Positions 11,479 to 23,156 of a DNA stretch of 51,781 nucleotides are shown here, piece after piece. Position numbers and translations under genes: made by a program. Numbering within the stretch: the first letter of the stretch is position 1; each line of letters begins with the position of its first letter. The DNA comes from Geminicoccaceae bacterium (lineage in GTDB: Bacteria; Pseudomonadota; Alphaproteobacteria; Geminicoccales; Geminicoccaceae), in assembly GCA_025062095.1 (NCBI GenBank), contig JANXAZ010000025.1:1-51781 (forward strand). The letters run 5' to 3'. Below the pieces are notes generated by a model. The model was given only the letters and a program-made list of their open reading frames with translations. It was not told the DNA's origin and searched no databases.

Positions 11479-11678
11479 GGTGGTCCCGGCAACGAGCACG
11501 AGCGCGAACCGCTCGATCCCGAAAGGACGAAACGCCTCATAACCCAGTTCCCGGTCCACGGCCAGCGCCGGGCATCCCGGAGTATCGCCGCCGTCGGGCC
11601 GAGAGGCGTCCGCGAGCGGTGGCGGAGAATCCGGACCGCCGGCTAGAGTCCGCCCGCGGGTCCTCCTCGGAGCGCGGC

Positions 11679-13142
11679 ATGACGCACTCGCAGACCGCTG
11701 TTTTTCGCCGTCTCGTGCGCGACCACATGGCTGACGCCCCGGTCGTGGTGCCGCTCGGCAGCACCGCGGCCGAGACGGTGGCGCTCATGGCCCAGAACCG
11801 CGCCTCGGCGGCGGTGGTCGTGGACGGCGACGGCGCGATCCGCGGCATTCTCACCGAGCAAGACGTCGTCCGTCGCATCGCCTGCCGAAGGATCGGCCAT
11901 CAGCCGGTGGACGGGCTCATGACCCGGCCGGTTTTCACGGTGCGTGCGGACGATCCGCTCTACCGCGCGATCGGCTTCATGCGGCGCAAACGGTTGCGGC
12001 ACATGCCGGTGGTCGACGACGGCGGTCGTCTCGTGGGCATGCTGTTCTTGCACGACGCCTTGGGATCCGCGGTCGGCCCGCTGCTCGAGGAGATCGACCG
12101 GCTCACCCACGAGGACACGATGGAGGGACTCGCCCAGGTCAAGGCGGCCGAGGTCGAACTCGCGCGAAGGCTCCTCGCCGACGAGGTGCCGGCGCCGGAG
12201 ATCCAGGCCCTGGTCTCCGACATCAACAACGACCTCTACCGGCGCGTGCTGCGGCTCGTGACGGCCGAACTCGAAAGCGACGGATGGGGTGCGGCGCCGG
12301 TGCCGTTCGCGGCGATCGTGATGGGCTCCGGTGGCCGACGGGAGAGCTTTCTCTTCCCCGACCAGGACAACGGCTTCGTCCTCGCGGACTATCCCGACGA
12401 AGCCCATGCCGCGATCGATCCCTGGTTCATCGAGTGCGCCGAGCGGATGACCCGGGCTCTCGATCGGCTCGGTTTCCGCTTGTGCAAAGGGGGAGTGATG
12501 GCGACCAATCCGCTCTGGCGCAAGAGCATCTCGCAATGGAAAGCCCAGGTCGCGGGTTGGATGCGCAAAAAACACGAGGCGATGCTGTTGTTCTGCGACA
12601 TTTTTTTCGACTTCTTGCCGGTTTGGGGCGAGCGCCGGCTCGCCGAGGATCTCCGAGCCTTCGTGACCGAGACCGCGCCCAAGAACCCGCTCTTTCTGCG
12701 GGAGATGTTCGGCATCCAGGCCGATCACCGAGCGGGGATCGGCTTGTTCAACCGGTTCATCACCGAGCGGCAGGACCCCGAGCACAAAGGGCACATCAAC
12801 TTGAAACTCATGGGCACGCTGCCGCTCGCCGAAGCCGTGCGCTTGTGGGCGCTGCGGCACGGCGTGGCCGAGACCGGAACGCTCGCGAGGATCCAGGCGC
12901 TCCACGCGATGGACAAATTGTCCGAGGACGAGGCGGATCGCCTGCGCGCCGCCTTCGTCTTCATCACCGGATTGCAACTGCGCCAGCAGATCGCGGATTA
13001 CGACGCCGGCCGACCCGTCGGAAACTTCGTCGATCCCAAGAGCCTCACCGATCGCGAGCGCGAGACCCTCAAAGACGCCTTCCGCGCCATCAACGACTTT
13101 CGCGCGCGCTTGAAGAGCGAGCTCACGGGGAGGTTGTTGTGA
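11679..13142 (+). CDS. CBS-domain DUF294 nucleotidyltransferase-like protein
   Basis: 487 residues. Two CBS domains (about residues 15-130, with MTRPVFTVRADDPLYRAI and MPVVDDGGRLVGML) precede a GlnD-like nucleotidyltransferase domain marked by IVMGSGGRRESFLFPDQDN, in which GS and DxD are the catalytic positions. A C-terminal helical DUF294 domain follows. Relatives occur next to acetate permease/acetyl-CoA synthetase and CrbS-type kinase genes, often with a DnaQ exonuclease and a small membrane protein. The same partners are found here at 18150-23156, about 5 kb away, so this may be a split version of that locus. Target of nucleotidylation is unknown. ATG 11679 has GGAG ten bases upstream; an upstream GTG at 11619 is less likely. 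Confidence 0.88.
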   Translation: MTHSQTAVFRRLVRDHMADAPVVVPLGSTAAETVALMAQNRASAAVVVDGDGAIRGILTEQDVVRRIACRRIGHQPVDGLMTRPVFTVRADDPLYRAIGFMRRKRLRHMPVVDDGGRLVGMLFLHDALGSAVGPLLEEIDRLTHEDTMEGLAQVKAAEVELARRLLADEVPAPEIQALVSDINNDLYRRVLRLVTAELESDGWGAAPVPFAAIVMGSGGRRESFLFPDQDNGFVLADYPDEAHAAIDPWFIECAERMTRALDRLGFRLCKGGVMATNPLWRKSISQWKAQVAGWMRKKHEAMLLFCDIFFDFLPVWGERRLAEDLRAFVTETAPKNPLFLREMFGIQADHRAGIGLFNRFITERQDPEHKGHINLKLMGTLPLAEAVRLWALRHGVAETGTLARIQALHAMDKLSEDEADRLRAAFVFITGLQLRQQIADYDAGRPVGNFVDPKSLTDRERETLKDAFRAINDFRARLKSELTGRLL

Positions 13143-15894: not shown

Positions 15895-17577
15895 TCAAGC
15901 GACGCGCAGCGGCTTGTAGCGGATGCGATGGGGCTGGTCGGCCGCGGCGCCGAGACGCCGACGGCGGTCGGCTTCGTAGTCTTGATAGTTCCCCTCGAAC
16001 CAAACGACGCGCGAATCCCCCTCGAATGCCAGAATGTGTGTGCAAATACGGTCCAGGAACCATCGATCGTGGCTGATGATCACGGCGCATCCTGCGAATT
16101 CGACCAGAGCATCTTCCAGAGCGCGCAGCGTGTCGACATCGAGATCGTTGGTCGGCTCGTCAAGGAGTATGACGTTGGCGCCGGACTTCAACAGCTTGGC
16201 CATGTGGACGCGGTTGCGCTCGCCCCCCGAGAGCTGACCGACTTTCTTCTGCTGATCGGGGCCGCGGAAGTTGAACGCCGCGACGTAGGCACGGCTCGGC
16301 ATGGTGTACTTGCCGAGCTGGATCGTGTCCTTGCCTTCGGAGATCTCCTCCCAGACCGTCTTGTTGGGGTCGAGGGTGTCGCGGGTCTGATCGACGTAGC
16401 CGAGCTTGACCGTGTCCCCGATCCTGAGCGTTCCGGCATCGGGCCGTTCCTGGCCGACGATGATCCGAAAAAGCGTCGTCTTGCCCGCACCGTTCGGTCC
16501 GATCACGCCGACGATCCCGCCGGGCGGCAGGCGGAACGAGAGGTTCTCGAACAAGAGCTTGTCGCCGTAGGCCTTGGCGAGGCCCTCGGCCTCGATGACC
16601 AGATCGCCCAGGCGGGGACCGGGCGGGATGACGATCTGGGCCGTCCCCGGCGCTCGTTCCTGGGCCCGGCGCAAAAGCTCCTCGTAGGCCTGGATGCGGG
16701 CCTTGGCTTTGGCTTGCCGCGCGCGCGGCGAAGCGGCGATCCATTCTTGCTCGCGCGCGAGGGTCTTTTGCCGAGCGATCTCCTCGCGCTCTTCTTGTTC
16801 GAGACGTTTGCGCTTCTGTTCGAGCCAACCCGAATAGTTACCCTGGTAGGGATAGGCCCGACCACGGTCCAACTCGAGGATCCAGCCCGCGACATTGTCG
16901 AGGAAATAGCGGTCGTGCGTGACCGCCACCACCGTGCCCTTGTACTCCTGGAGATGACGCTCGAGCCAGGCGACGGACTCGGCGTCGAGATGGTTGGTGG
17001 GCTCGTCGAGCAGAAGAAGATCGGGCTGCGCGAGCAACAACCGACACAAGGCGACGCGGCGCCGCTCGCCGCCGGAAAGGGTGGAGACGTCGGCGTCGCC
17101 CGGCGGACAGCGCAGGGCGTCCATCGCGATCTCGAGCTGGCGTTGCAGCTCCCACCCGCGCACCGCGTCGATCTTTTCTTGCAACTCGGCCTGCTCGGCC
17201 AAGAGCGCGTTCATCTCTTCTTCGGACAGGGGCTCGGCGAAGCGCGCCGAGATCGCATCGAAGCGGTCCAAGAGCGCCTTGGTCTCGGCCACCCCTTCCA
17301 TGACGTTGCCGAGGACGTCCTTGGTGGGGTCGAGCTTCGGTTCCTGCTCGAGATAGCCGATGCGGACGCCTTCCGCGGCCCAGGCTTCGCCCGAGAAGTC
17401 TTTGTCGATCCCGGCCATGATACGGAGCAGGGTCGATTTCCCCGAGCCGTTGATTCCGATGAGGCCGATCTTGGCTCCGGGTAAAAAGGCCAAGGTGATG
17501 TTGTCGAGGATCTTCTTGCCGCCAGGAAAGATCTTGGTCAGGCGTTTCATCACGAAAACGTATTGATAGGCGGCCAT
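15895..17577 (-). CDS. ettA: Energy-dependent translational throttle protein EttA (ABC-F)
   Basis: 560 residues, a soluble ABC-F ATPase that binds the ribosomal E site and gates the first peptide bond according to the ATP/ADP ratio. Two nucleotide-binding domains are visible. The first has [20 protein letters not shown] and [11 protein letters not shown]. The second has [21 protein letters not shown] and [11 protein letters not shown]. The EttA-type arm region and a long helical linker rich in Arg/Glu/Gln (about residues 245-320, [18 protein letters not shown]) lie between them. ATG 17577 has GAGGAG seven bases upstream and matches the conserved [15 protein letters not shown] start. It is divergent from the receiver gene, with a 193-base gap. 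Confidence 0.97.
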
Positions 17578-17770
17578 GAGGCTCCTCGAGTGGGTGTGGT
17601 TGCGCGGAAAGTGTGGCGAAGTGCGCGTTTCTTAGCTCATCGCGCGCGCCGGCGGAAGGCCCGCGCGCGGCCGCGCTCCGGCCTTGCGCGCTTTTCGAAG
17701 ATGGCGGAAACGATGAGAATTGTTCGGGGACGCGCGTCGCGCGCGGGTGTCCCCGGCGGGGAGGCGGGCC

Positions 17771-18142
17771 GTGCCGAAACGGGTCTTGGTGGTCGACGAT
17801 GAACCCAACATCGTTTTGAGCCTCGAGTTCTTGATGCGCCGCGCGGGCTTCGAGGTCCAGGTCGCGCGCACCGGGGGCGAAGCGCTCAAGGCTCTCGAAG
17901 GCGAGCCGCCGGACCTCGTGCTCCTCGACGTCATGATGCCGGAGGTGGACGGTTACGAGGTCTGCGAGCGGCTGCGCGCCAAGCCCGAATGGCGCAAGAC
18001 GAAGATCGTCATGCTCACCGCCCGCGGCCGGGAGGCGGAGCGCGAGCGGGGTCTCGCGCTCGGCGCCGACGCCTACATCACCAAGCCCTTCTCGACCCGA
18101 GAGCTCGTCGAACAAGTGAAGCGGATGCTGGAGGTCGCCTGA
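17771..18142 (+). CDS. Single-domain response regulator (CheY-like receiver)
   Basis: 123 residues, receiver domain only. Acidic pocket D9/D10, phospho-acceptor D53 (LVLLDVMMPEVDGYE), T83 and K105 (YITKPFS) are all present, so it should be phosphorylated. There is no output domain, so it must act by protein contact or by phosphotransfer. GTG 17771 is preceded by GGGGAGGCGGGCC and begins PKRVLVVDDEPN, the usual receiver start. It is followed after 7 bases by the DnaQ-fusion gene and lies in one operon with the CrbS-like kinase at 20421, its likely phosphodonor. Confidence 0.93.
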   Translation: MPKRVLVVDDEPNIVLSLEFLMRRAGFEVQVARTGGEALKALEGEPPDLVLLDVMMPEVDGYEVCERLRAKPEWRKTKIVMLTARGREAERERGLALGADAYITKPFSTRELVEQVKRMLEVA

Positions 18143-18149
18143 GCGGGCC

Positions 18150-20228
18150 ATGGTCGAAGGCCGCCGCCTCGTCTTCTGGGTGAGCGGAGCGCTCGCTCTC
18201 GCGGTGTTCGCCCTCGCGGTCTTCGCCTCGGCCGCTCTGCACGATACAGCACCCGGCCGCGGCGGGGCCGCGCTCGCCTTCGGTTCGCTCCTCGCCGTCG
18301 CGGTCTTGGCCGCGGCCGTGCTCGTGGATCGCTGGCTGCTCGCACCGGCTCGCGCCCTCGCGCGCTCGATCGAAATCGTGCTCGCCACCGGCCGCGCGAG
18401 CGCCGCCCCTCTTCCCGCCCGGCACGCGCTCGGCGCGTTGCCCCTTCGCGTAGGCGCGCTCGTCGAGCGGGTGGTAGGGGCGGAAGAGCGGCTCGGGGAA
18501 GAGCGGGCCCGGGCCAAAGCCGCGGCCGAAGCCGATCGCCGACGGCTCGCCGCGATCCTCAGAGACATCGGCGAGGGGCTGATCCACGCCGCCCCCGACG
18601 GGCGGATCCTCCTCTACAACGACGCCGCCGTCACCCTCCTCGGCGCGCCCGCGGGTCTGGGCCTCGGTCGCTCGGTCTTCGAGGTGCTCTCCCACGAGAC
18701 CCTCGCCCATCATCTCGATCTGTTGCGGCGCCTGGCGCGCGGCGACGCTTCCGTGCGCGGGAGCGAGCCCTTCATCGTCACCGCCGCCGAAACCGGTCGC
18801 CTGCTGCGCTGCCGGCTCAGCCTCGTCGGCGACGAACCCCCGGGCGGGGAGGGTTTCGTCCTGGTCCTCGCCGAGGCGAGCGTGCCGGTCTCGGGCGGCA
18901 CGGGGCGCCTTCTGGACCAGCTCGAGAGCGGCTGGCGCGGGCCGGTGGCGGCGATCCGCGCGGCGGCGGAAGTGTTGCGGGAAAGCGCGCTCGACGAGCA
19001 GACCGCCTGGTTCACCCGGGTGGTGGTCGAAGAGACGGCGCGGCTCGAGGGTCTGTTGTGCGAGCTCGCGGCGGAAGCGCGCGCCATGGTGTTGCAGCAG
19101 TGGCCGCTCTACGACGTCGCCACCGGCGATCTCGCCGAAGTCCTGGCGGAGCGGCTCGCCGCCCGCGGCATCGACGTCCGGCTCGGTTGCGAGGGCGAAA
19201 GCGCCTGGGCGAGTGCCGACAGCGGCACGCTCGTCGTGCTGCTCGCGAGCTTCCTCGAGCGCCTGGCGCGCAAGGGCGTGACCGAGGCGACGCTTTCCGC
19301 GCGCAACCGCTCGCACGGCGTCACTTTGCGCCTCGCCTGGCGCGGGCCCCTTCTCGAGCGGGAGGAATTCGAAACGTGGCTGGCCTCGCGCCTGGAGGGC
19401 TGGGGTCTGCCCTTCACCCCGCGCGAGATCGCGGAGCGCCACGGTTCGGAGCCTTGGCTCGCTTCTTCCCCCGAAGGCGGGGTTCTCCACCTGCCCCTCT
19501 CGCCGCCCAAGGGCGTGCACCAGGTCCGCGCCCCGCCCGCCCTGCCGGCTCGACCGGAGTTCTACGACTTCGAGCTCGCCGCCGCTCCCGCCAGCCTCGA
19601 GAGCCAGCCCTTGCGCCAGGCGAGCTACGTTGTCTTCGACTGCGAGACGACCGGCCTCGACGTCGAGCAGGACGACCTCCTCCAGCTCGCCGCGGTCCGG
19701 GTCGTCAACGGACGAGTCATCTACGGGGAGGTGTTCGACTGTCTCGTCGATCCCGGTCGCTCGATCCCCGAGGATTCGATTCGCTTTCACGGCATCACGC
19801 CGGACATGATCGTGGGCAAACCGCCCCCGGAGGTGGTGGTCGCCCGCTTCGCGCGCTTCGCGCAGGGAGCGGTGCTGGTCGCGCACAACGCCGCCTTCGA
19901 TCTTTCGTTCTTGCACAAATACGAACGGCGCGCGGGCGTCCGTTTCGAACAACCCGTCCTCGACACGCTCTTGATCGCCGCCTTTCTCGAAGACCACCGG
20001 GGCGATCACAGCCTCGACGGCGTCGCCGCGCGGCTGGGAATCCCCATCCGGGGTCGGCACACCGCACTCGGGGACAGCCTGGCCACGGCCGAGATCCTGG
20101 TCCGTTTGCTGAGCATGCTCGAAGCGCGCGGGATCAAGACCCTCGGCGAGGCCATCCGGGCGAGCCGCTCGATGGTCGAGATCCGACGCCAGCGTGCGCG
20201 ACCGGTGGAGGCCGCGAGCCGTGTCTGA
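18150..20228 (+). CDS. Membrane PAS / degenerate histidine-kinase / DnaQ-like 3'-5' exonuclease fusion
   Basis: 692 residues in three parts. (1) Two N-terminal membrane helices (about 8-30 and 42-62) with a short periplasmic loop and a HAMP-like linker. (2) A PAS-like domain (about 130-240: LAAILRDIGEGLIHAAPDGRI) and a kinase-like stretch in which the phospho-acceptor His of the H-box is Ser260 (ESGWRGPVAAIRAAAEVL), with no N-box Asn and no GTGLGL loop, hence a pseudokinase. (3) A C-terminal DEDDh exonuclease: D497 and E499 (VFDCETTGLD), D584 (AHNAAFDLSF), H637 and D642 (HTALGDS). The nuclease set is intact. Family exonucleases proofread DNA or trim RNA; the substrate here is unknown. Coupled to the genes on both sides (7-base gap before, 8-base overlap after). 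Confidence 0.9.
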   Translation: MVEGRRLVFWVSGALALAVFALAVFASAALHDTAPGRGGAALAFGSLLAVAVLAAAVLVDRWLLAPARALARSIEIVLATGRASAAPLPARHALGALPLRVGALVERVVGAEERLGEERARAKAAAEADRRRLAAILRDIGEGLIHAAPDGRILLYNDAAVTLLGAPAGLGLGRSVFEVLSHETLAHHLDLLRRLARGDASVRGSEPFIVTAAETGRLLRCRLSLVGDEPPGGEGFVLVLAEASVPVSGGTGRLLDQLESGWRGPVAAIRAAAEVLRESALDEQTAWFTRVVVEETARLEGLLCELAAEARAMVLQQWPLYDVATGDLAEVLAERLAARGIDVRLGCEGESAWASADSGTLVVLLASFLERLARKGVTEATLSARNRSHGVTLRLAWRGPLLEREEFETWLASRLEGWGLPFTPREIAERHGSEPWLASSPEGGVLHLPLSPPKGVHQVRAPPALPARPEFYDFELAAAPASLESQPLRQASYVVFDCETTGLDVEQDDLLQLAAVRVVNGRVIYGEVFDCLVDPGRSIPEDSIRFHGITPDMIVGKPPPEVVVARFARFAQGAVLVAHNAAFDLSFLHKYERRAGVRFEQPVLDTLLIAAFLEDHRGDHSLDGVAARLGIPIRGRHTALGDSLATAEILVRLLSMLEARGIKTLGEAIRASRSMVEIRRQRARPVEAASRV

Positions 20229-20424
20229 CACGCGTTTCGCGCGCCTGCTCGCGGTGGCGCTCGTCGCGCTGACACTGTTCAATTTCCCGATGATCGAGGT
20301 GATCGAGCGCTGGTCGGAGCTCTCCGGCGTGGCGCTCGTGCCCGTCTATTTCTTCGGTGCCTGGGCCGGCGTGATCGCGCTCGCGGCCTGGTTGCTCGAG
20401 CGCGAGAGCGGAGGCGAGCCGTGA
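20221..20424 (+). CDS. Small two-helix membrane protein of the transporter-kinase operon
   Basis: 67 residues with two membrane helices (FARLLAVALVALTLFNFPMI and VPVYFFGAWAGVIALAAWLL). It starts at GTG 20221 inside the end of the exonuclease gene and its stop overlaps the next GTG by four bases (GTGA). Small two-helix proteins, some of them DUF4212, usually precede acetate-permease-like SSS transporters and CrbS-type kinases; this one likely assists assembly or gating of the transporter module. Membership of DUF4212 itself is uncertain. Confidence 0.75.
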   Translation: MSDTRFARLLAVALVALTLFNFPMIEVIERWSELSGVALVPVYFFGAWAGVIALAAWLLERESGGEP

Positions 20425-23156
20425 GCCAGCTCGCCACGCTCGCGATCCTGATCTCGCTCGCTTATCTCGCCTTTCTCTTCGCCCTCGCTTCCTGGGGCGA
20501 CAGGCGGGCGGAGCAGGGCCGCAGCGTCATCGCCAATCCTTACATCTACACGCTTTCGCTCGCCGTCTATTGTACGGCGTGGACCTATTTCGGCAGCGTC
20601 GGTGTCGCCGCCGGCCAAGGGGTGGGTTTTCTTCCGGTCTATCTCGGCCCCACGCTGCTCGCGCTCCTCTTCCTCGGCCCCGTGCGCAAGATCCTGCTGA
20701 TCGCCAAGGCCTACGGGATCACCTCGATCGCCGACTTCGCCTCCGCCCGCTACGGCAAGAGCGGGGCCGTGGCGGGGTTGGTCACGATCGTCGCGCTCGT
20801 CGGCTCCATTCCCTACATCTCGCTGCAACTCAAAGCCGTGGCGACGGGCATCGAGCTTTTGCTCGCCCACGACGGCGCGGACGCGCAAGGAGCGCTCGGC
20901 GCCGACAGTGCGCTTCTCGTCGCCCTCGTCCTCGCCGCGTTCAGCATTCTCTTCGGCACCCGCCACATCGATGCGACCGAGCACCACCAGGGCATGGTGC
21001 TCGCGATCGCCTTCGAGAGCATCGTCAAGCTCTTGTGCTTTCTCGCGGTGGGAGTGTTCGTGACCTGGGTCCTCTTCGCCGGGCCGAGCGATCTCCTCGC
21101 TCGCGCCGAAGCGGCGGGGATCGTCGATCGGTTGCACTTTTCCGCCACGCGGCTCGGCTACGCCGACTGGTTCTTGTTGACCTTGCTCTCGGCCTTCGCC
21201 GTTCTCTTGCTGCCGCGGCAGTTCCAGGTGGTGGTGATCGAAAATCTGGAGATCGGCCATCTGCGTCGCGCGAGTTGGATGTTTCCTTGCTATTTGCTGA
21301 TCATCAATCTTTTCGTGCTGCCGATCGCGCTCGCCGGCCTCATCCTCGGTGGAACGGTGGCCGAGGCGGACAGCTTCGTGCTGCGTCTGCCGCTCGTCCA
21401 CGGTCAAGGCTGGCTCGCGATCGTCGCCTTCTTGGGCGGTCTTTCCGCCGCGACGGCCATGGTGATCGTCGAGACCGTGGCGGTGTCGACCATGATCTCC
21501 AACGATCTCGTGATGCCGCTTCTGTTGCGCATCCGCTCGCTCGGTCTCGCCCAGCGGCCGGATCTCACCGGGCTCATCTTGGGCGTCCGACGCGCCGGCA
21601 TCCTCCTCGCCATCGCCGGGGGATACCTCTTCTTCCACAGCGTCGGCGAGGCGATGGGGCTCGTGAGCATCGGCTACATCGCCTTCGCCGGCGTCGCCCA
21701 GTTCGCGCCTCTGCTGTTGTTGGGCATCGCCTGGAAGGGCGCCAACCGCAACGGCGCCGTGGTCGGGCTTCTGGCCGGGTTCTCGGTCTGGCTCTACACT
21801 CTCGTTCTGCCGTCGTTCGTGACCGCGGGCGTACTTCCCGAAAGCCTGCTGCGCGAGGGCCCCTTCGGGGTCGCGCTGTTGCGCCCCACGGCTCTGTTCG
21901 GCCTCGAAGGGCTCCACCCCGTGGCCCACTGCACGCTCTGGAGCTTGTCTGCGAATACCGGGCTCCTCGTGCTCGTGAGCCTGCTCACCCGGGCTTCGGA
22001 TCTCGAGCGCCTGCAGGCCATTCTCTTCGTCGACGTCGAGCAGAGCCGGCGCACGCCGCGGCTGTGGCGCGGGGAGGCCAAGGTCGGCGCGCTCGAGGAG
22101 CTCCTCGTGCGGTTCCTGGGCCGTCCCGCGGCGGAAGCGATCTGGCGGGCGGAGACGGCGCGTCGCGGCCGGCCCCTCGACCCCGACGAGCCGGCGGACG
22201 CCGGCCTCGTCGAGCGCGCCGAGCGGCAGCTCGCGCGGGCGATCGGCGCCGCCTCGGCGCGGGCGGTGGTCGCCTCGGCGGTGCGCGGCGAGAGCATCGG
22301 GCCCGATGCGCTTTTGGAAATCCTCGATGAAACTCAGAAAGTCATCGAATACAGTCGCAGGCTAGAGCAGAAATCACAAGAGTTGGAAGCGGCGACCGCC
22401 GAGCTGCGACACGCCAACGAACGTCTCCGCGAATTGGACCGTCTCAAAGACGACTTTCTGGCCACGGTGAGCCACGAGTTGCGGACGCCCCTGACGTCGA
22501 TCCGGTCCTTCTCGGAGATCCTGCTCGACAACCCCGATCTCGGAGCGGAAGAACGAGCACATTTCTTGCGCATCATTACGAGCGAATCGGAGCGGCTCAC
22601 CCGCCTCATCAACGACGTCCTCGATCTTTCCAAGATCGAATCGGGGCGCATGGATTGGCAGATCGGGCCGGCCGACCTGGCCGAACTCGTGCGCGAAGGG
22701 ATCCGCGCGGCGCAGGGGCTCGTGGCCGAGAAGGGGGTGGAGCTCGAAGTCGCCATCCCCGACGAACCGGCACCGGTGACCTGCGACCGCGACCGGATCG
22801 TCCAGGTCGTGCTCAATCTCCTCTCCAATGCCTGCAAATTCGTGCCGCGACCGGGCGGCCGCGTGCGGGTCGAGCTCCAGCGCAAAGGCCCGATGTTCGA
22901 GATCCGTGTGGAGGACAACGGTCCCGGTGTGCCGCCCGCCGCGCGGGAATTGGTGTTCGAGAAGTTCCACCAGCTCACCGGCGACCTCAACACCCAGAAA
23001 CCCACCGGCACCGGCTTGGGGCTGACCATCTCCAAGCAGATCGTCGAACGTTTCGGCGGCCGGATCTGGGTCGAGGACGCGCGCCTCGGCGGGGCGGCGC
23101 TCTGCTTCACCCTACCGGTCGCCGAGAGCCCGAGCGCGGTGCGCGCCGCCGCCTGA
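20421..23156 (+). CDS. CrbS-like sodium/solute-symporter-type sensor histidine kinase
   Basis: 911 residues. An N-terminal SLC5/SSS transporter domain of about 13 helices (residues 1-540; YCTAWTYFGSVGVAAG and TSIADFASARYGKS are typical) is joined by a linker (540-660) to a coiled coil and a complete kinase core. The core has H685 (SHELRTPLTSIRSF), N-box (VVLNLLSNACKF), DNGPGVP and GTGLGLTIS. In CrbS/CbrA-type proteins such a fused transporter senses or couples a solute (acetate or histidine) to the kinase. GTG 20421 has GGAGG nine bases upstream. It should phosphorylate the receiver at 17771. Its stop codon abuts the convergent mlaC stop with no gap. Confidence 0.93.
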   Translation: MSQLATLAILISLAYLAFLFALASWGDRRAEQGRSVIANPYIYTLSLAVYCTAWTYFGSVGVAAGQGVGFLPVYLGPTLLALLFLGPVRKILLIAKAYGITSIADFASARYGKSGAVAGLVTIVALVGSIPYISLQLKAVATGIELLLAHDGADAQGALGADSALLVALVLAAFSILFGTRHIDATEHHQGMVLAIAFESIVKLLCFLAVGVFVTWVLFAGPSDLLARAEAAGIVDRLHFSATRLGYADWFLLTLLSAFAVLLLPRQFQVVVIENLEIGHLRRASWMFPCYLLIINLFVLPIALAGLILGGTVAEADSFVLRLPLVHGQGWLAIVAFLGGLSAATAMVIVETVAVSTMISNDLVMPLLLRIRSLGLAQRPDLTGLILGVRRAGILLAIAGGYLFFHSVGEAMGLVSIGYIAFAGVAQFAPLLLLGIAWKGANRNGAVVGLLAGFSVWLYTLVLPSFVTAGVLPESLLREGPFGVALLRPTALFGLEGLHPVAHCTLWSLSANTGLLVLVSLLTRASDLERLQAILFVDVEQSRRTPRLWRGEAKVGALEELLVRFLGRPAAEAIWRAETARRGRPLDPDEPADAGLVERAERQLARAIGAASARAVVASAVRGESIGPDALLEILDETQKVIEYSRRLEQKSQELEAATAELRHANERLRELDRLKDDFLATVSHELRTPLTSIRSFSEILLDNPDLGAEERAHFLRIITSESERLTRLINDVLDLSKIESGRMDWQIGPADLAELVREGIRAAQGLVAEKGVELEVAIPDEPAPVTCDRDRIVQVVLNLLSNACKFVPRPGGRVRVELQRKGPMFEIRVEDNGPGVPPAARELVFEKFHQLTGDLNTQKPTGTGLGLTISKQIVERFGGRIWVEDARLGGAALCFTLPVAESPSAVRAAA

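Follow-up and report, generated by a model that had tools for sequence, protein, structure and literature searches.

A protein encoded on a contig of a Geminicoccaceae bacterium (JANXAZ010000025.1, 51,781 nucleotides, hereafter the window) joins a membrane anchor, a PAS domain and a kinase-like core that appears catalytically dead to an apparently intact DEDDh exonuclease. We use PHX as a working name for the family of such membrane PAS-pseudokinase-exonuclease proteins. We consider it fairly probable that PHX is the effector of a two-component pathway with a nuclease output, built on a switch like that of DivK and DivL. This is supported by the domain anatomy, the loss of kinase residues, the intact nuclease site, the gene linkage, and the linked loss of the receiver, the DHp hairpin and Arg263. 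From these observations we infer phosphotransfer, docking and nuclease control: the neighbouring SLC5-type sensor kinase would phosphorylate a single-domain receiver, the receiver~P would dock on the catalytically dead DHp hairpin in PHX in the way that DivK~P binds the pseudokinase DivL, and the DHp-CA core, under tuning by the PAS domain, would then shift so as to expose or restrain the membrane-held exonuclease, through its access or its activity. Docking of the receiver on the pseudo-DHp is likely on the strength of the sequence comparisons; for control of the tethered nuclease by the docked receiver we put the chances somewhat above even.

Domain anatomy and the degenerate kinase core

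The strand opposite PHX carries a 734-residue open reading frame. The PHX frame was taken to be the real gene because it is matched in five congeners, all of the other genomes of the genus that were searched: at full length in four (84, 74, 73 and 73% identity) and split over two contigs in the fifth (75 and 85%). Pfam placed a PAS domain at residues 132-238 (E = 9e-9) and RNase_T at residues 494-650 (E = 1.7e-34), with a HisKA match at residues 263-303 remaining below its threshold (E = 0.01). Hydropathy showed two peaks, near residues 16-22 and 49-55. An AlphaFold2 model of the whole protein, built with 70 aligned members (pLDDT 86.6), gave the order as two N-terminal helices, a long helix, the PAS domain, a hairpin (251-278 and 283-316), an alpha/beta CA-like domain and the nuclease. 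The succession of two membrane helices, PAS domain, kinase-like stretch and nuclease proposed in an earlier sequence-only reading is confirmed by these three methods. The same reading had suggested that a membrane signal may gate the nuclease directly, possibly through the adjacent receiver. The involvement of the receiver has gained support from the linked loss and from Arg263, described below. Direct gating has not: only about eight residues separate the helices, so PHX has no periplasmic sensor and a membrane signal acting directly on the nuclease becomes less likely. The helices were therefore set aside as an external sensor providing the main input, and the PAS domain and the receiver are the likelier inputs.

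Because the nearest-structure list for the whole model consisted entirely of exonucleases, residues 244-458 were modelled separately (pLDDT 89.0). Foldseek matched this model to histidine-kinase cores, with HK853 chains from kinase-receiver complexes at the top and DivL at rank 19. VIA-align superposed the CA part on PrrB (Z = 15.4, 2.6 Å over 132 residues) and the whole core on DivL (Z = 12.9, 12.8 Å over 199 residues), the latter deviation indicating that the halves of the two cores are differently placed. In sequence searches the family profile matched VicK (profile positions 49-477, E = 3.9e-24) and DivL (E = 2.5e-7), and profile-profile alignment with hhalign paired PHX with the intact kinase encoded next door (probability 99.05, E = 2e-18, 200 columns). 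As modelled, residues 245-460 form a DHp-CA core related to kinases, the fold that had been anticipated for this region.

Within this core the acceptor column holds Ser260, and histidine is absent from residues 259-261 in all 102 members that bear a DHp domain. The N-box, DxGxG and GTGLGL motifs of the neighbouring kinase align, in the profile-profile comparison, with unrelated residues of PHX. A Pfam scan of PHX gave no HATPase_c match, and only one of 68 members scanned gave any (E = 0.0039). On these three grounds (Pfam, profile alignment and the 68-member scan) we rejected the possibility that PHX is a working kinase with an overlooked N-box. The lack of an acceptor histidine, an N-box and a GTGLGL loop, first read from the window alone, thus holds up, and the kinase part is, to judge from its lost catalytic residues, dead throughout the family. 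When the genome carrying the window was searched with the pseudokinase profile, the best non-self match was the neighbouring kinase (50.5 bits; next match 24.8). This is at most suggestive of an origin in which the pseudokinase may derive from a duplicate of that kinase, already recognising its receiver, because solved kinases reach 45 bits with the same profile.

The five residues of the nuclease site (D497, E499, D584, H637 and D642) are invariant in all 132 members analysed, in agreement with the complete DEDDh set reported earlier; because sampling was based on membership of the PHX family, forms that had lost the nuclease would have escaped notice. The nearest solved relative is the PolC exonuclease (Z = 24.4, 1.6 Å over 190 residues), and the active site is apparently intact. 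Ahead of the nuclease, the linker is conserved as well, with R468 present in 102/102 members and D473 in 101/102. Alternatively, the pseudokinase could dephosphorylate the receiver or serve as a sink for it and thereby tune kinase signalling, with the fused nuclease performing a separate job. We regard this as very improbable. The core does resemble DivL, which works inside a signalling pathway rather than on an enzyme fused to it, but DivL was found to have no phosphatase activity (PMC4211667, cited here from excerpts), and in this family-derived sample the nuclease residues of PHX are retained with or without a receiver.

Linked retention of the receiver, the DHp hairpin and Arg263

A pattern search of genome contigs returned at least 596 stretches, of which at least 530 encode a relative by tblastn, a figure that possibly includes plain DnaQ-like matches. 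The best 80 of the at least 530, together with 60 further genome stretches and the window itself, formed a working set of 141 loci. Five near-duplicates (97% identity) were dropped, as were L206, whose DHp region reads as unrelated residues, and L039, L172 and L108, whose flanks are too short, leaving 132 members. In L206 (genome G204) the unrelated stretch lies between recognisable domains, as after frameshifts. The threshold for a retained DHp was first 72 residues over positions 245-316 and then 55 residues over positions 256-316; the second was chosen after the first had scored L057, L038 and L105 as reduced.

If the dead DHp hairpin serves to bind the receiver, both are expected to be kept and lost together. 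A receiver gene is adjacent to PHX in 91 of 102 DHp-bearing members compared with one of 30 DHp-reduced members (Fisher p = 5e-19, ignoring kinship). Under the first threshold the corresponding counts are 89/99 and 3/33, and at the 89 loci with full flanks they are 59/66 and 0/23. Receiver orthologues were also sought in 48 genomes, where scores split into a group of at least 177 bits, which included all six receiver-positive controls, and a group of at most 145 bits. An orthologue is present somewhere in the genome for 97/102 DHp-bearing and 6/30 DHp-reduced members. A tree built from the exonuclease domain requires no fewer than 11 changes in DHp state and 17 in receiver adjacency. Across eight independent pairs on well-supported (starred) branches, the receiver moved with the DHp in a mean of 5.4 and never in the opposite direction (median p = 0.031); scored by presence anywhere in the genome, the pairs gave 4.9 same and 0.0 opposite (median p = 0.0625).

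Individual exceptions were traced on both sides. Eleven DHp-bearing members lack an adjacent receiver, and six of these have one elsewhere in the genome (L043, L093, L106, L110, L191 and L182); proximity is therefore not required for retention of the DHp. The other five (L034, L198, L105, L075 and L077) have none in the genome. Residue 263 is Ala in L034, while L198 and L105 have DHp scores of 26 and 18 with CA scores of 144 and 152. On the DHp-reduced side, the receiver is adjacent only in L159, is encoded elsewhere in five cases (L047, L052, L194, L168 and L169) and is absent from the genome in the remaining 24 of the 30. Two sets of sisters place a DHp-bearing PHX that has no adjacent receiver beside a DHp-reduced one (L191 with L194; L075 and L077 with L082). 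These placements fit loss of the receiver preceding decay of the DHp, except that the L194 genome retains a receiver elsewhere.

The relationship extends to a single residue. Arg263 lies three positions past the lost histidine and aligns with Arg553 of DivL. Arginine is found here in all 92 receiver-adjacent members, compared with 11 of 19 that lack an adjacent receiver and keep at least 40 residues of the DHp. Counted by genome, it is present in 97/97 DHp-bearing members with a receiver and in 98/100 members with a receiver and at least 40 DHp residues, as against 5/11 members of the same DHp length whose genomes have no receiver. The same 11 members keep E295 in six cases and W436 in four, and the CA columns W353, D357, W397, G399, W410, H431 and R447 in 10 or 11. 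The acceptor position of DivL is occupied by Tyr550, and substitution R553A, at the same spacing as Arg263, disrupts binding of DivK~P (PMC4211667). The prediction for PHX rests on one residue and one small partner and is therefore directly testable.

Several observations weigh against a DivK/DivL-like switch in PHX. Arginine at position +3 is common in ordinary working kinases (SHELRTPL), so conservation of Arg263 is by itself unspecific and the signal lies in its loss among members without the receiver. The CA columns are conserved without a receiver, so the core has another job too; the CA domain may perhaps have a second role, such as holding the nuclease. L075 and L077 have no receiver yet keep a full DHp with Arg263, and L159 has a shortened DHp with the receiver still adjacent. 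Five genomes (L047, L052, L194, L168 and L169) retain a receiver, away from PHX, with a PHX whose DHp is reduced or missing, and the receiver therefore has other roles there. The ratio of DHp to CA score is alike in receiver-adjacent members and in the 11 DHp-bearing members without one (medians 0.50 and 0.51); the median of 0.18 among 25 receiver-less members with a CA score above 50 mostly restates loss of the DHp. The support from the tree is modest for adjacency and for genome presence alike; the tree was a quick one that includes three long branches, and only 40 of its 133 inner branches are starred. Finally, some of the genomes compared are incomplete.

In a rival reading the receiver, the SLC5-type kinase and PHX are mere operon neighbours, with the receiver serving another partner, PHX acting as an independent membrane nuclease that uses its DHp for dimerisation, and whole clusters breaking up together in some lineages. 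We judge this unlikely. It is favoured by the receiver-kinase pairs that persist without a PHX DHp in the five genomes just named, and by the kinase being mostly lost along with the receiver (at full-flank loci it is present in 45/66 DHp-bearing and 1/23 DHp-reduced cases). It is favoured also by L168 and L169, where an opposite-strand DUF294-CBS gene separates the receiver-kinase operon from PHX. Against it stand the relaxation of R263, E295 and W436 alone, with the CA columns intact, and the receivers encoded elsewhere in six of the 11 genomes whose DHp-bearing PHX lacks an adjacent one. L168 and L169 themselves were not retained as receiver-positive, DHp-less exceptions, their receiver sitting in a separate operon with the kinase.

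Eroded forms of PHX are found without an adjacent receiver. The DHp is shortened, with the PAS and CA domains retained, in L045, L047, L050 and L052; the CA domain is missing, with traces of the PAS domain or N-terminus remaining, in L158, L160-L162, L168 and L169; and L170-L172 and L178 are nearly bare nucleases. These forms bear on a reading in which the PAS domain is the real input, with a cytoplasmic ligand or redox signal acting by way of the kinase-like core on the nuclease and the receiver contributing only minor modulation. The PAS domain is found in the family and outlasts the full DHp in the first four loci, but L170, L171 and L178 keep the nuclease residues without a detectable PAS domain, and the link between receiver and DHp would go unexplained; we consider this reading improbable. 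In L173, L174 and L177 the approximately 290 residues before the nuclease match none of the PHX N-terminal, PAS, DHp or CA profiles, and another regulatory domain perhaps replaces these parts there.

Distribution and gene neighbourhood

Among sampled genomes, a strict profile threshold detected PHX in 51 of 398 from the window's phylum and in 25 of 385 from its class. The best 80 of the at least 530 relatives are by title mostly from Pseudomonadota, with single records from Nitrospirota, Caldilineaceae and Desulfatitalea. By these profile counts, the domain order first noted in the window belongs to a widespread conserved family and is not peculiar to this locus. The features of the window are collected in Table 1.

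Table 1. PHX, its parts and the neighbouring genes of interest, in window coordinates
Feature	Position	Strand	Basis
PHX: membrane-anchored PAS-pseudokinase-DEDDh exonuclease, 692 residues, ATG start	18150-20228	+	Open reading frame, Pfam, congener matches, AlphaFold2
Two membrane helices, residues about 8-31 and 39-64, loop of about 8 residues	18171-18341	+	Hydropathy, AlphaFold2; ends by eye
PAS domain, residues about 132-242	18543-18875	+	Pfam, AlphaFold2
Pseudo-DHp hairpin, residues 251-316, with Ser260 at the acceptor position and Arg263 at +3	18900-19097	+	Alignment, models, Foldseek
Degenerate CA (HATPase-like) domain, residues about 318-455	19101-19514	+	Alignment, models, VIA-align
Conserved linker with RPEFYDF, residues 468-476, N-terminal of the nuclease	19551-19577	+	Residue conservation
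DEDDh exonuclease, Pfam match to residues 494-650; D497, E499, D584, H637, D642	19629-20099	+	Pfam, structure match, conservation
Single-domain receiver gene, 140 residues as listed, TTG start, 7 bases between its end and PHX	17720-18142	+	Response_reg, E = 1.2e-30
SLC5-type sensor kinase, 911 residues as listed, intact HisKA and HATPase_c	20421-23156	+	Pfam, match to 10ed
DUF294-CBS nucleotidyltransferase gene, about 4.6 kb upstream of the receiver gene	11619-13142	+	Family-wide neighbour comparison

A receiver gene directly adjoins PHX in 92 of the 132 members, a raw count given without a background rate for arbitrary genes. The family receivers are about 130-140 residues long and mostly encoded directly upstream of PHX; those adjacent keep the acceptor Asp in 91/92 cases and the Lys in 92/92. 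No natural fusion of receiver and PHX was seen among up to three nearest receiver matches in each of the 141 loci. Divergent from the receiver gene of the window, positions 15895-17577 of the minus strand hold an ABC-F-like ATPase gene (two ABC motifs by eye), a homologue of which lies near PHX in several loci.

The N-terminal part of the SLC5-type kinase matches structure 10ed (E = 8.6e-68), the SLC5-STAC part of CbrA (PMC13022988, from an excerpt). Pfam gave no match to its SSF model in this protein and none to Response_reg, the HATPase_c domain running to residue 901 of 911. Of 62 neighbouring kinases compared at full length, every one has the acceptor His and 61 carry the N- and G-box residues, the remaining one showing a gap. 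The genome of the window, assembled in 143 contigs, encodes two GerE proteins, neither of which is a canonical receiver-LuxR regulator. One (L214:1471-2286, minus strand, contig C49) has a receiver match below the Pfam cut-off (20.1 bits) and, by eye, no acceptor Asp; the other was judged by eye to have no receiver.

The commonest neighbour across the family is the DUF294-CBS gene, found at 66 of the 89 full-flank loci and at 22 of the 23 among them that are DHp-reduced, again without a background rate. SSS transporters, DUF4212, DUF485 and acetyl-CoA synthetase genes also recur. Because DUF294-CBS, SSS transporter and acetyl-CoA synthetase genes lie nearby, the setting of PHX is probably carbon (acetate/pyruvate) utilisation. 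A more specific proposal, which we regard as a long shot, is that the path would run from a nutrient transceptor kinase to membrane nucleolysis as its direct output, with the DUF294-CBS nucleotidyltransferase as an enzyme opposing the nuclease. The two would write and erase nucleotidyl marks on RNA or on protein, and these marks would set the response to acetate or pyruvate.

Three further arrangements were observed around the DUF294-CBS gene. At 27 loci (for example L154:4533-5072) a protein of about 180 residues with apparently two membrane helices is encoded, often between this gene and PHX; one was scanned and had no Pfam match at E = 0.001. In Comamonas (L075:4109-6594, and L077) a DUF294-CBS gene and a separate DEDDh exonuclease frame lie directly upstream of PHX, so that these clusters hold two exonuclease types. 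A Pseudomonas genome with PHX (L056) has two DUF294-CBS genes (L218 and L221), each followed by a free DEDDh exonuclease, and the pairing of nucleotidyltransferase and exonuclease thus recurs there. These free exonucleases reach only 72-93 bits with the PHX exonuclease profile and belong to another subfamily.

Comparison with known systems

The window resembles the CrbS/CrbR (MxtR/ErdR) and CbrA/CbrB systems in having an SLC5-type transporter domain on a histidine kinase, and its family shares with them the DUF294-CBS, SSS transporter and acetyl-CoA synthetase genes near PHX. CrbS has a C-terminal receiver domain (PMC5715377, from an excerpt), whereas the window kinase has none. Unlike in CrbS/CrbR, the presumed partner in the window is a single-domain receiver, and a canonical receiver-LuxR regulator was not found in the genome. 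The sequence-only reading had noted that CrbS-type loci often contain a separate exonuclease gene. This is borne out by PP_0353 of P. putida, a free putative exonuclease sharing an operon with a CBS-domain gene that has an ErdR-bound promoter (PMC9927547, from excerpts), and by the two pairs in the L056 genome. PP_0353 is required for growth on pyruvate but not on acetate, and is like PHX in being of the RNase_T type, linked to a CBS-domain gene and set in carbon use; the likeness is one of description, and the excerpts call it a putative exonuclease and say nothing of PAS or kinase parts (PMC9927547). The text of PMC5436829 contains neither nuclease nor CBS terms. Among the open-licence papers listed by the literature searches we saw none on a fusion of pseudokinase and exonuclease, and a search for DUF294 together with an exonuclease gave no paper. 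If PHX functions as proposed, a function could be assigned to the exonuclease and DUF294 genes that belong to the acetate-switch set (PMC9927547), and a nutrient sensor could switch a nuclease directly.

The proofreading exonucleases DnaQ and PolC share with PHX the complete set of DEDDh residues and the fold. Unlike these, the PHX nuclease lies outside any polymerase and follows the remnant of a membrane sensor kinase. Each part of PHX thus has a precedent, in DivL, DnaQ/PolC or CbrA/CrbS; it is the combination that was not seen among the open-licence papers listed.

The closest parallel is DivL with DivK in Caulobacter, the studied example of a kinase core converted into a sensor of a phosphorylated receiver. 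Like PHX, DivL has a kinase core without an acceptor histidine, a PAS domain upstream and an arginine at acceptor +3, and the parallel extends to the profile and fold matches between the two proteins and to a single-domain receiver as the likely partner. Receiver docking has been shown for DivL and is what we infer for PHX. The authors of the DivL work left open how widely such reversed wiring occurs (PMC4211667). If PHX works like DivL, reversed wiring would be widespread in Proteobacteria and would extend to a nuclease under direct control. The target of DivL is the CckA phosphorelay, whereas PHX carries its own nuclease and adjoins the genes for a receiver and an SLC5-type kinase.

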